Source: a virus
DNA: 42,887 bases
IMG/VR virus record: IMGVR_UViG_3300044691_000246
Span: 1-42,887 of that record
Strand: one strand, 5' to 3'
The translations under genes were made by a program, and so were the position numbers. The notes beneath the pieces were generated by a model. That model ran no database searches, had not been told where the DNA came from, and was given only the letters and a program-made list of their open reading frames with translations. Shown here one piece after another: positions 24,827-32,219 of this stretch (its first letter is position 1; each line of letters starts with the position of its first letter).

Positions 24827-25086
24827 TGTTTCTCCCCCAATTTAAAAACAATCGCTGTGGCGGCGATTGCCTTGGTTTGGTCAACCCGCGCGAAGTACTC
24901 CTCCGCTCTGTCCCAACCGGCGTCATCGTCCGTGTACAGCGCCGCAACCGAGCACACGCCCAAGCCTTCCGGCGCGGCGTAGAAACGCACCTCCGGCGCG
25001 CCCTCGTTGTTGCCGTCCAACTTAACGAGAATTTGCCCGTGTTTCTCCGTCTCAAACAACTTGCAAAAAGTGCTAACCTTTGACAT
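24823..25086 (-). CDS. Hypothetical protein downstream of DNA polymerase (87 aa)
   Basis: ATG 25086 overlaps the polymerase stop by 14 bases and has GAGGG upstream. STFCKLFETEKHGQILVKLDGNNEGAPEVRFYAAPEGLGVCSVAALYTDDDAGWDRAEEYFARV is a beta-alpha pattern with a well formed end. No signal peptide and no recognised motif. It is translated as part of the replication operon; a role near DNA synthesis is only suggested by position. Confidence 0.7.
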   Translation of the reverse strand: MSKVSTFCKLFETEKHGQILVKLDGNNEGAPEVRFYAAPEGLGVCSVAALYTDDDAGWDRAEEYFARVDQTKAIAATAIVFKLGEKQ

Positions 25087-26368
25087 ATCGTTTTCCCTCA
25101 TATCCATCCGCCGCCATTGGCAGCCCTTCTGCCCAAGGCTCGGTCGTTGTCATGTACCCGATGAGTCTTTGGAGCGCGTCTTTGTCGTTCTCGTCCGCCT
25201 CGCAGATAAGCTCATCGTGTGTGTGTCCCACAATCGCCATACTTCCCGCGTGTTCCTTGCCCGTGTCCGTGTCGAACCCTCGCAGCATCGCATCCACGAG
25301 CAAATCAACGGCGATAGCTTGCGTGATGTTTTCGCAAAGACGCCCGCCGTACGTGTTGTGAACTCCCCAACTGCTACCACGGCTCGCCTCATAGCCGAGC
25401 GTTAGTTTCTTTCCGCCGAATTGGTTCCGCTCCGTGCGGACGTACGCATTGGGGTAAACGAGTTCCCGCCCGCTCGGAAGTACAATCCGCAACGCCGGGT
25501 CCCGCCACGCGAACGTCAACTTACTGCCGAGGGTGCTGTTGATATATTGGTTCCGCCGCTTCGATACACACGCCGCGTACGCCTCTTCGAGGTAATACCA
25601 AAAAGAAGCGACCTCCATAAACGTGTCCCGGAACGCTTCGACTTGCGCCGTGGCTTGCCCCTGTGACAGATCAATCCCCATCATTTCGGCGTACCGCCAA
25701 AGTCCGGTCTTGACGACTAGCCCGGCCTTCGCTTCGAGGCCGCACACGGGGCAACTCCCAAAATCAAACTCCGGCTTGACGTTCCATACGTGCTTCGGAT
25801 GTCCAGCGGAGCACGTACACTTTCGTACGAGTTGCCCGCCGCCCAAGCCGAAGCCGCTTCCGAGGACGGCGGGCTTTGCTTGCTGCCGGAGTTCCGCCGT
25901 GACCTCGGAATAATCGATGTCTTCCATGCGGGCCGCAAAGTCTATATAGGGGTCCTTCCCGGCCTTATAGACGTTCATCATCGCTTCGCAACCGGACTCC
26001 CACGCGAGGACCCTGTTTTCCACGGATGAGAAGTCCGCAAGGACAATCTTCTTTCCCTTGGGTGCCGTCATCAGTGGACGGAGTGCCAAGGACAGCGCGT
26101 CCAACGTCGGAACCTCGTCGCCGTCCTCCAGTAGCTTGATGACTAAAGCGACTTGGAGTTTTTCTTCTTTGGTGCGGGCGGCCTTCAAGTTCTGAAGCTG
26201 GGCACCCTTCCCCGCCCACCGGCCCGTGTGCGCCTTATAGAAGCTGTATTGATTCCTTAGCCGGTCGTCCGGGCTAAGTTGCTCCAGGATCTTAGGCAAC
26301 TTCTTGATGGACGCCTTGGCCCCGGCAAGACGGAGTACGAGTGCCTGCCTCCCTTCAGTCGTTAACAT
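25073..26368 (-). CDS. DNA polymerase family A, polymerase domain (split gene, C-terminal part)
   Basis: The 431-residue protein contains the polymerase core. YKAHTGRWAGKGAQLQNL (about 44-61) is the thumb-palm signature. Motif A is ADFSSVENR with Asp112. Motif B is RQQAKPAVLGSGFG with Arg161, Lys165 and Leu169; Leu169 is equivalent to E. coli residue 762. Motif C is HDE at 384-386. Between motif B and the next helix there is an insertion with Cys184, Cys186, Cys206 and Cys209 that looks like a zinc site. The exonuclease domain is on the separate upstream gene; ATG at 26368 lies 14 bases inside that gene behind a GAGGG site, so the two are translationally coupled. The two parts presumably form one functional enzyme for phage replication. 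Confidence 0.9.
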   Translation of the reverse strand: MLTTEGRQALVLRLAGAKASIKKLPKILEQLSPDDRLRNQYSFYKAHTGRWAGKGAQLQNLKAARTKEEKLQVALVIKLLEDGDEVPTLDALSLALRPLMTAPKGKKIVLADFSSVENRVLAWESGCEAMMNVYKAGKDPYIDFAARMEDIDYSEVTAELRQQAKPAVLGSGFGLGGGQLVRKCTCSAGHPKHVWNVKPEFDFGSCPVCGLEAKAGLVVKTGLWRYAEMMGIDLSQGQATAQVEAFRDTFMEVASFWYYLEEAYAACVSKRRNQYINSTLGSKLTFAWRDPALRIVLPSGRELVYPNAYVRTERNQFGGKKLTLGYEASRGSSWGVHNTYGGRLCENITQAIAVDLLVDAMLRGFDTDTGKEHAGSMAIVGHTHDELICEADENDKDALQRLIGYMTTTEPWAEGLPMAADGYEGKRYVKG

Positions 26369-27152
26369 CCGTGCCCTCTTCCTTGAGTGCCTTGAGCACT
26401 AATTCTTTGCCGAGGCCGTTATATGGATAGCCGCGCTCTGTGACCCACTTCAAAAGCTGGGCGGGACTATTCGGGTTCTCCAAGCCGGTTAGCGTCTTGA
26501 GGTCTTCTGCGGACTCCGCCTGCAACCGCTGTGCCTCTTCCCAGGCGCGGAACGTCAACAGCCGGTCTACTGGCATACCGCGCTGGTTTATCTCTTGGTC
26601 GATAAGCCAAGACAAATAGACCCGCTCCGGGATGTCGAAGTGCTTATGGACCCACTGATAGATAAGCCGCGTGTCCGATACGTCGTCTTTGCAGTATTGG
26701 CAAAAGCTAGCCCAATCTTCGGGGTCTGTCTCGGGGCCGCGCCGCGTTCCGTCCTTTTGCGGTTTGCAAAACTTATTGATTAAGAGCGATTCTTTGCTCG
26801 TCACCGAGTCATGCGCGAAAAACGGAACACGGTTGCAGTCTTTCAATCCAGCGGGAAGCCCTGCATATAAAGCGTCAACCATCGCGTCCCGCCACTTCAG
26901 ACCGGAGAGCTTCCAAACCCGCGAAATCAACGTCCGCTCAAACCCCGTATTCCACGGGACAAGGGTGTTGTTCCGCATCTCCCGCTGTAGCTCGGAGAGG
27001 CCGGGGTCACCTTCTTGCCACAGCTCAACCGGGCCGGAGTCGAATGCGTACGCGCACATCAAGATGCGGGTGCTCGGGTGCGATGCGTACCTATCCAAAC
27101 TGACCTTCTTTATGTCCATGTCACTGTAGGTTTCGAGGTCAGGAAACAGCAC
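26355..27152 (-). CDS. DNA polymerase family A, 3'-5' exonuclease domain (split gene, N-terminal part)
   Basis: GTG 27152 follows GGAGG by six bases. The 265-residue protein has the DEDDy exonuclease motifs: FPDLETYS (Asp5, Glu7), VPWNTGFERT, and YCKDDVSDTR. After the exonuclease it continues into the start of the polymerase region (YLSWLIDQEINQRGMPVD, LTGLENPNSPAQLLKWVTERG, NGLGKELVLKAL) and stops just where other family A phage polymerases go on. The break falls in a linker, and the downstream gene restarts within 14 bases in another frame. I see no clear slippery sequence at the join, so two polypeptides are more likely than one frameshifted chain. Confidence 0.88.
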   Translation of the reverse strand: MLFPDLETYSDMDIKKVSLDRYASHPSTRILMCAYAFDSGPVELWQEGDPGLSELQREMRNNTLVPWNTGFERTLISRVWKLSGLKWRDAMVDALYAGLPAGLKDCNRVPFFAHDSVTSKESLLINKFCKPQKDGTRRGPETDPEDWASFCQYCKDDVSDTRLIYQWVHKHFDIPERVYLSWLIDQEINQRGMPVDRLLTFRAWEEAQRLQAESAEDLKTLTGLENPNSPAQLLKWVTERGYPYNGLGKELVLKALKEEGTDVND

Positions 27153-30819: not shown

Positions 30820-30999
30820 TTAGAGGTACTTCTTAACGCGGGCCAATGCAGCGACTTCGACACCCTTCAAATCTGCGAGGGCGTTGCTGTACAGCTTCAA
30901 CGCGGCGGCGACGGTCCGCGCTTCAAGCTCTTCGCCGTACTTCCGGCCAAGAAAGAAAGACACAGCGTTCGCGACGATAAACAAAACGGCGTAATACAT
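30820..30999 (-). CDS. Small membrane protein (59 aa)
   Basis: ATG 30999 overlaps the stop of the endonuclease VII gene (TAATG). The product starts with a transmembrane helix (YYAVLFIVANAVSFFLGRKYG) and goes on as an Ala/Leu-rich helix (EELEARTVAAALKLYSNALADLKGVEVAALARVKKYL). The ending is fixed by TAA at 30822-30820, before the terminator. Function unknown; the N-in or N-out topology is not clear. Confidence 0.7.
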   Translation of the reverse strand: MYYAVLFIVANAVSFFLGRKYGEELEARTVAAALKLYSNALADLKGVEVAALARVKKYL

Positions 31000-31370
31000 T
31001 ATTTTTTTCTCCGTACAACGACAGCGACGGGAGGTCCGTAGACCTTAATCTTTTTGCTCGCCTTGGCCGTCCCGATGAGGCCGAAGGTTTCTTTCCCGAG
31101 AGCTAAAGGCGCTGTTGGGTTTGCGAGGTACGCGCCTAGATTGGTGGCGGTCGCGGGACGGTCCCGGATGATGCCGATTGCGCGATTGCAGAGCCAACAC
31201 AAAAGGCCACGGATGCGGCCCGTTTTATGACAGTGGTCAACTGCGAGGCGTATTCCATACGGCGGACGACCACAGCCCGCACAGACGCCTTTTTGAAACT
31301 GAAAAACCGTTTCGTACTCTTCCTCGGTTAAGCGGTATAGCACCCATAGAAGCCGTCCACGTGCGCTCAA
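30999..31370 (-). CDS. Recombination endonuclease VII-like HNH protein
   Basis: TTG 31370 has GGAG five bases upstream and overlaps the previous stop. The 123-residue protein has the endonuclease VII signature: CAGCGRPPYGIRLAVDHCHKTGRIRGLLCWLCNRAIG, where two C-x-x-C pairs bind zinc and DHCH-x-TG-x-IRG carries the catalytic His. T4 endonuclease VII resolves branched DNA before packaging. The C-terminal third is basic (KASKKIKVYGPPVAVVVRRKK). An in-frame GTG nine codons in could be used instead. Confidence 0.88.
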   Translation of the reverse strand: MSARGRLLWVLYRLTEEEYETVFQFQKGVCAGCGRPPYGIRLAVDHCHKTGRIRGLLCWLCNRAIGIIRDRPATATNLGAYLANPTAPLALGKETFGLIGTAKASKKIKVYGPPVAVVVRRKK

Positions 31371-31513
31371 CTAAACTCCACGTCTGTCTCTTCGTACGGG
31401 CCGCCAACCTTAACGTCCAGATACTCACCGCCCGTATTCAGCGTGGCGGCGTCGGGCGGTAGCGTTTGCAGAAACGCAATAAGCTCCGAAACGTTCTCGA
31501 ATGTTTTTTCCAT
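31367..31513 (-). CDS. Small acidic hypothetical protein (48 aa)
   Basis: ATG 31513 is preceded by GAAAGGACAAC, a good ribosome site. EKTFENVSELIAFLQTLPPD, then AATLNTGGEYLDVKVGG and an acidic end, has clear phage codon use. The stop overlaps the endonuclease VII start. It is the first gene after the structured region at 31535-31749, so that RNA would be its leader. Confidence 0.65.
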   Translation of the reverse strand: MEKTFENVSELIAFLQTLPPDAATLNTGGEYLDVKVGGPYEETDVEFS

Positions 31514-31534
31514 GTTGTCCTTTCAAAAGAAGCC

Positions 31535-31749
31535 GCTGTGGTCCCTTAACTGATGGCCCTTCTCCGTCGTCAAGAGCAAGCGGGAGAAAGGGCTAAAACC
31601 CCGCTCCCACAGCGTCCGTTTATCCAAGGAACCTCAAGGCCGGAGTCCGGGTGAGGTTCCGGGGGATCTAATCAGCGCCCGTTAGGTGCGGGCTTGTGCG
31701 CTTAGCCGCACGGTCTAAAGCGCAATACTGTGACCGGGCTACGGGCGCT
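31535..31749 (-). ncRNA. Putative structured RNA, three consecutive stem-closed domains
   Basis: The 244 bases between the SSB-like gene and the gene at 31513 hold no reading frame but three nested structures. Domain A (31674-31749) is closed by a perfect 9-bp stem AGCGCCCGT/ACGGGCGCT and contains two inner hairpins (GGTC/GACC and GTGCG/CGCAC in the minus direction). Domain B (31628-31660) is closed by GGAACCTCA/TGAGGTTCC with an inner CCGG/CCGG hairpin. Domain C (31535-31613) is closed by GCTGTGG/CCACAGC and has two mutually exclusive inner hairpins. The minus strand is favoured because both flanking genes run that way. There is no tRNA T-arm and no T-run. It could be a regulatory leader or a free RNA. 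Confidence 0.62.
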
Positions 31750-31757
31750 GAAAAGGC

Positions 31758-32219
31758 TTATTTGTCCGTTTGATCCTGCTTGCGAACGAAGTCAGACGGA
31801 ATATCAATTCCCGCTTGGCCCTTCTTGAGCGCCATTGTTGCGGTTATTTTGATGAACGTCTTTCCGTTGTCCCCGTCTTCCGCAGCCAAAACGAGCATCC
31901 GCTTGGTGCCGATCAAACTATCCAGGTCGAACGGAGTTCCCGGCTCGAAGTCCTTAAAGCCGAGTTCCTTCAGACGGCTCCGCAGCCGGGCCTTCTCATG
32001 CAAGCTCACTGTGAAGCTCTCAAAGACGCGCTTGTTTCTTCCGTCCTCGTCTTCCTCTTGGACCAGCCAAACAAAATACGCCTTGTGCTGCGTGGTCCCC
32101 GGCTTGAACTTGTTCGGGACCTGACCCTTGTCCACGATGTCCGCGAGCACGCCGGGTTGAATCATTTCCGTTACCGGCTCGAAGTCTTTTCCGCTTTCAA
32201 TCGAAACGTTTAATCCCAC
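31758..32219 (-). CDS. Single-stranded DNA-binding-like replication protein
   Basis: GTG 32219 follows GGAGG by nine bases. The 153-residue protein (GLNVSIESGKDFEPVTEMIQPGVLADIVDKGQVPNKF..., KAYFVWLVQEEDEDGRNKRVFESFTVSLHEKARLRSRLKELGF, LIGTKRMLVLAAEDGDNGKTFIKI) is of the phage SSB-like family found next to RecT/Erf or polymerase genes, with an OB-fold-like strand order and the typical SLHEK-x-x-LR step. It ends in an acidic-basic tail (DFVRKQDQTDK). It is the first gene of the replication block. Longer starts to 32315 run into the control region. Confidence 0.72.
   Translation of the reverse strand: MGLNVSIESGKDFEPVTEMIQPGVLADIVDKGQVPNKFKPGTTQHKAYFVWLVQEEDEDGRNKRVFESFTVSLHEKARLRSRLKELGFKDFEPGTPFDLDSLIGTKRMLVLAAEDGDNGKTFIKITATMALKKGQAGIDIPSDFVRKQDQTDK

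Follow-up and report, generated by a model that had tools for sequence, protein, structure and literature searches.

A phage intergenic RNA with a CyVA-1-related domain and predicted kissing loops

The gap upstream of an endonuclease VII gene pair in a phage genome (the window, the whole 42,887-nt stretch of DNA analysed here) holds a structured and evolutionarily constrained RNA on its minus strand, a conclusion that is strongly supported. The 3' part of this RNA, domain C (31534–31614, minus strand), is a three-way junction with kissing loops. Its homology to the CyVA-1 group of Rfam (RF02965) is well supported by sequence and covariance-model comparison, and its loop–loop pairing is demonstrated at the level of covariation. 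A hairpin (domain B) and a second three-way junction (domain A) precede it.

The gap comprises exactly 244 nt without a gene (31514–31757), as an earlier reading made from the sequence alone (the sequence-only reading) had stated, and is bounded by the stop codon of gene X (31758–31760) and the ATG at 31513. Its minus strand folds to −102.1 kcal/mol, compared with −84.7 ± 5.0 kcal/mol for dinucleotide shuffles (z = −3.46), and 0 of 200 shuffles were as good; the comparison with shuffled sequence that the sequence-only reading had proposed thus came out in favour of its impression of a structure beyond chance. The z value of the plus strand is similar (−3.38), and every homology model matches the minus strand. 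The individual z values of domain A, hairpin B, and domain C are −3.39, −2.72, and −2.39, respectively. A structure-blind scan of the 42.9-kb window for three-way junctions with a loop–loop pairing of at least 6 bp returned exactly two places, domains A and C, whereas chance alone would give about 0.17 per strand. No Rfam family was found in the gap at the curated gathering cut-off, and the JUMPstart and mir-145 matches from an E-value threshold search were weak and were ascribed to chance. A tRNA, a terminator or another Rfam family received no support from ARAGORN, a terminator pattern or Rfam, in agreement with the earlier statement that the gap is neither a terminator nor a tRNA. The three stem domains described at that time are all present, but their closing stems are of 11, 9, and 8 bp rather than 9, 9, and 7 bp, and the three-way junction suspected in domain A is also the architecture of domain C.

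The genome is siphophage-like, with terminase, portal, head, tail and integrase families as well as a DNA polymerase and a primase, and the phage is probably temperate because an integrase is present. The DNA polymerase region (25073–27152, minus strand) consists of two adjacent ORFs (26355–27152 and 25073–26368) that match successive parts of phrog_17, so that the gene is split or frameshifted. The RNA lies in a leftward operon between gene X (31758–32219, minus strand; ~153 aa), which forms its 5' border, and a 48-aa ORF (31367–31513, minus strand), which follows it directly with a GAAAGGA ribosome site and an ATG. The relatives of gene X are at 96% (locus L072) and 53% (L073); no match to it was found in 399 Terriglobia genomes, so that an acidobacterial host of the window phage gains no support from this gene. 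The stop codon of the 48-aa ORF overlaps the TTG start of a 123-aa endonuclease VII-like protein (30999–31370, minus strand; phrog_307, E = 8.8e-29), and the two genes are apparently translationally coupled. A search of viral contigs with the 48-aa ORF gave no relatives, and its one weak match was in a Sphingomonas phage.

Domain C is built from an 8-bp closing stem (CGCUGUGG/CCACAGCG), hairpin 1 (AGCGGG/CCCGCU), and hairpin 2 (CUCUUGAC/GUUAAGGG), joined by junction strands of 1–2 nt (G, UG, and A). The pairing of GCCCUUUCUCC with GGAGAAGGGC is a loop–loop (pseudoknot) contact that is compatible with both hairpins and conflicts with the stem of hairpin 1 at its last 1–2 pairs only. Its core is the GCCCUU of loop 1 (31588–31593, minus strand) and the AAGGGC of loop 2 (31556–31561, minus strand). 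The sequence-only reading had described two competing inner hairpins at this place; that impression arose from the pseudoknot and is better replaced by a conserved kissing loop formed alongside the stems. In alignment A4 (18 single-domain sequences), 99.1% of the cells of the loop 1–loop 2 helix are paired and 3 of its 6 pairs have changed on both strands; the variants GCGAUU/AAUCGC, GCCAUU/AAUGGC, GCCCUU/AAGGGC, and GUCGUU/AACGGC occur. None of 500 shuffles and none of the slid controls scored as well as the whole structure in A4. A4 and alignment A5 (38 Terriglobia sequences) show 94% pairing with two-sided changes, and 0 of 500 shuffles were as good. Covariation in homologs, by which the sequence-only reading itself had proposed to judge the RNA, is therefore clear. 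In A5, which contains 26 invariant columns, the 6 bp of the kissing helix and their flanks UUUUCGCGAUUUC and GAGAAUCGC are invariant across the 38 sequences, while the other stems vary and covary. Because it never varies, the kissing helix in A5 is uninformative on pairing, yet this constancy beside covarying stems points to a recognition site.

The Rfam CyVA-1 model matches domain C at 31536–31612 over its full length (model positions 1–77 of 77) with 35.8 bits and E = 1.8e-6 in the E-value threshold search, a score below the gathering cut-off of 41.4 bits for this family. The closing stem and two hairpins of the CyVA-1 consensus are present in domain C, and all three stems covary. The loop-2 motif (C)GA-GGAGAA..UCAG may be shared in part: where CyVA-1 has GAAGGAGA-CGACGUCA, the window has GACGGAGAAGGGCCAUCA, in which GGAGA and UCA are kept and the centre has changed along with loop 1. 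A covariance model built from 38 acidobacterial sequences only, with no phage sequences (R3), matched domain C with 63.8 bits (E = 6.5e-14 over 488 kb) and the copy in Tunturiibacter phage Tunturi_4 with 77.9 bits (E = 1.3e-17). Since this acidobacteria-only model recognizes both phage RNAs, domain C is, with good support, a diverged homolog of the CyVA-1 group that scores below the Rfam cut-off. Two acidobacterial copies (L182 and L183) pass that cut-off and bridge the cyanobacterial group and the domain C group. The earlier opinion that no described class matches is thus partly wrong, given the full-length RF02965 match and the intermediates that link both groups, although it holds in so far as the score stays under the gathering cut-off.

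A BLAST search of 50,697 phage records gave a single relative, Tunturi_4 (80.6% over 67 nt), which keeps all stems and the loop pairing through compensating changes; its kissing sequence is GCCAUU, compared with GCCCUU in the window. No further viral copy was found by pattern scans of viral contigs or by the search with the 48-aa ORF, and the pattern-scan matches lacked the stems and looked like chance. A model built from the cyanobacterial, acidobacterial, and phage copies (R1) revealed more acidobacterial copies, and model R2 detected the RNA in 48 of 250 Terriglobia genomes, mostly as one copy per genome, and on two Acidisarcina plasmids, both of which R3 matches too. Among 50 Terriglobia copies examined, 29 are followed directly by a DUF2383 gene in the same orientation, and other acidobacterial copies precede a PF16242 or DUF892 gene. 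About 40% of the acidobacterial copies and both plasmid copies have no single shared downstream gene, an arrangement that would suit a free RNA equally. The DUF2383, PF16242, and DUF892 families are linked to stress, and by this context the host version of the RNA may belong to a stress response. The acidobacterial form resembles domain C in its single domain, its internal 6-bp kissing loop with a bulged U, its leader position, and a hairpin that immediately precedes the CyVA-1-like domain, the last noted by eye. It differs in its nearly fixed GCGAUU/AAUCGC, compared with GCCCUU/AAGGGC in the window, in having DUF2383 rather than a phage ORF downstream, and in the absence of domain A. We regard this single-domain leader form of CyVA-1 as a new grouping, most of which falls below the Rfam cut-off and which is absent from the papers searched. 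At seven loci (L217, L218, L219, L221, L223, L226, and L229), a recurring CAAACC-N15/16-CATCTA sequence was seen by eye a short distance 5' of the hairpin ahead of the RNA; in one instance it immediately follows a hairpin that resembles a terminator. The sequence may be an acidobacterial promoter, in which case the RNA would be located at the 5' end of the mRNA.

The cyanobacterial CyVA-1 (D1) makes up only the 5' half of an RNA of ~200 nt; 10–70 nt further downstream comes a conserved second domain (D2), for example at L046:1489–1699, L055, L168, and L171 in alignment A2. D2 is outside the Rfam model except as a weak second CyVA-1 match. In 35 aligned cyanobacterial RNAs, D1 loop 1 and D2 loop 2 are paired in 93.3% and D1 loop 2 and D2 loop 1 in 98.6%, with two-sided changes at 9 of the 12 interdomain kissing pairs. 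Intradomain kissing performed worse (76.7% and 88.1% paired, with few two-sided changes) and was rejected for this group. In cyanobacteria the kissing loops thus connect two domains, whereas in Acidobacteria and phages the same loops pair inside a single domain. The Rfam consensus differs from the window RNA in that it describes one domain without loop–loop pairing; moreover, the cyanobacterial kissing partners lie in D2, 3' of CyVA-1, whereas the window has no 3' D2, carries its second domain on the 5' side along with hairpin B, and would form both kissing contacts intradomain. The cyanobacterial copies lie between genes that may be on either strand and share no single downstream gene, and the cyanobacterial RNA had no match in phage or plasmid records. 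Two complete D1+D2 units are arranged as a direct tandem, spaced by 208 nt, at L039:1483–1880 (Leptolyngbya sp. SIO4C1). A gene for a membrane-protein-like product of ~230 aa (start MTFF..SEP..R.KQ) is conserved upstream of the RNA in many cyanobacteria (L047, L057, L063, L158, L159, L165, L168–L170, and L172).

Domain A (31672–31751, minus strand) is the second three-way junction of the gap, with an 11-bp closing stem, two 5-bp hairpins, and a putative 7-bp kissing loop between UGCGCUU (31718–31724, minus strand) and AAGCGCA (31697–31703, minus strand), which was found by the architecture scan and is predicted from complementarity and the chance estimate. The possibility that domain A is a copy of CyVA-1 was rejected, as R1, R2, and R3 gave no match to it with filters off. 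No homolog of domain A was found, and no A-like kissing three-way domain was present near the Tunturi_4 or acidobacterial RNAs. Domain B (31628–31660, minus strand) is a single hairpin with a 9-bp stem (GGAACCUCA...UGAGGUUCC) and the inner sequence CACCCGGACUCCGGCCUUG. Nineteen nucleotides inside it (CACCCGGACTCCGGCCTTG; 31635–31653, minus strand) are identical to L072:6486–6504 in the same gap of a related phage, and the stem of the hairpin in L072/L074 differs yet stays paired. Domains A and C are absent from the phage relatives L072/L074, L075, and L076 and are hence gain-or-loss, cassette-like elements at this site.

The reading that we favour, with confidence evenly balanced, is that the RNA is a kissing-locked two-domain cis leader module whose CyVA-1-homologous 3' domain C derives from an acidobacterial host. 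Domain C is closest to the single-domain form of Terriglobia (Acidobacteriota) and was probably acquired from such a host. The RNA would constitute the 5' leader of the 48-aa ORF/endonuclease VII pair, act mainly in cis, and tune, through its closed kissing complex, how strongly the following gene is expressed; the complex would be a binding site or a stability clamp. A cis leader is the best supported role since a start codon follows the RNA closely in the window and in most copies, the downstream genes differ, and structure and loop sequence are conserved. The spacing to the start codon is ~20 nt both in the window and in Tunturi_4, where an RF-1-domain gene follows. The proposal that the RNA is a leader for the endonuclease VII genes thus survives as to position, in which most acidobacterial copies agree, but not as to specificity: the two phage copies precede different genes, the one in the window being the orphan 48-aa ORF with endonuclease VII and not DUF2383, and in the closest phage relatives the endonuclease is present but domains A and C are missing. 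An anti-Shine–Dalgarno switch formed by loop 1 was rejected, as its complementarity to the downstream ribosome-binding site is at shuffle level (mean 6.04 compared with 6.07 for shuffled sequences), and no terminator or alternative helix for a classical switch was found downstream in the window.

The main rival is a free phage RNA that acts in trans by means of its loops and is either cut out of the operon transcript or made from a transcript of its own; it might, for instance, bind an RNA-binding protein or mimic a CyVA-like RNA of the host. The lack of a fixed downstream gene in the cyanobacterial and plasmid copies and the filing of CyVA-1 as an sRNA in Rfam speak for this rival, which we nevertheless consider rather unlikely. 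The intergenic setting of the cyanobacterial copies between genes on either strand fits it, as does the recognition-site-like invariance of the kissing sequence and its flanks in the 38 Terriglobia despite stem variation. The start codon immediately after most acidobacterial copies and both phage copies argues against it, and in the window the RNA is flanked by neither a promoter nor a terminator. The changed kissing sequences of the phage copies also mean that these are no exact imitation of the common host site. Improbable in our judgement is a passive element, i.e. a spacer between cistrons or a stable structure at the 5' end that shields the endonuclease mRNA from nucleases or upstream translation without sensing; a compact, very stable structure in front of unrelated genes would suit this role, but the loop conservation, with the invariant columns of A5, goes far beyond the needs of stability. 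A DNA-level replication or recombination site with the repeats as cruciforms is very improbable: its position between replication genes and the about equal strength of the inverted repeats on both strands are outweighed by covariance models that match the minus strand only, homologs that precede unrelated chromosomal genes, G–U pairs that are common in the conserved helices of the RNA group, covariation already seen on one strand, and a site without a sharp GC-skew switch.

Compared with other known RNAs, the cis leader that we favour resembles the purine-type riboswitch aptamers, which have three helices, kissing hairpin loops, and a leader position. The likeness is one of architecture only: the junction strands of the window RNA are too short for the known ligand pocket, its conservation is in the loops and not in the junction, and it has no Rfam match to that family. 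GOLLD, ROOL, and OLE are large ornate RNAs, mostly of unknown function, for which multimerisation has been reported (PMC12286853). The window RNA is much smaller and has no Rfam match to them; multimerisation is conceivable here as well, as the intradomain kissing could swap between molecules.

Within the PMC papers under CC0, CC BY, and CC BY-SA licences, CyVA-1 is named in one paper only, as a detection in halite cyanobacteria, and the terms searched gave no mention of a non-coding RNA in the Tunturi paper (PMC11924767). The tertiary contacts, leader context, phage carriage, and extra domain are new here, although the original motif description may already mention pseudoknots or a second domain. 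The Rfam CyVA-1 model covers half of the cyanobacterial RNA and omits the tertiary contacts. What had been an orphan motif can now be tested as a system, given kissing loops that covary, a second domain, and, in Terriglobia, a leader position ahead of genes of the DUF2383, PNPOx-like, and DUF892 families. Expression and mutant tests are possible because the Tunturiibacter and Granulicella strains that Tunturi_4 infects can be cultured (PMC11924767). The structure is supported by the phage copies as well, which are natural double mutants in that the change in their kissing sequence is compensated. Tentatively, and with somewhat less than even confidence, CyVA-1 and the window RNA may belong to a wide superfamily of regulatory RNAs with paired hairpin loops, whose kissing partners can be rewired from a single domain to two domains or back; phages would have captured it, and the window phage would have added a second kissing domain of unrelated sequence. 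If this is true, phages use a captured kissing RNA to regulate or exploit their own operon.
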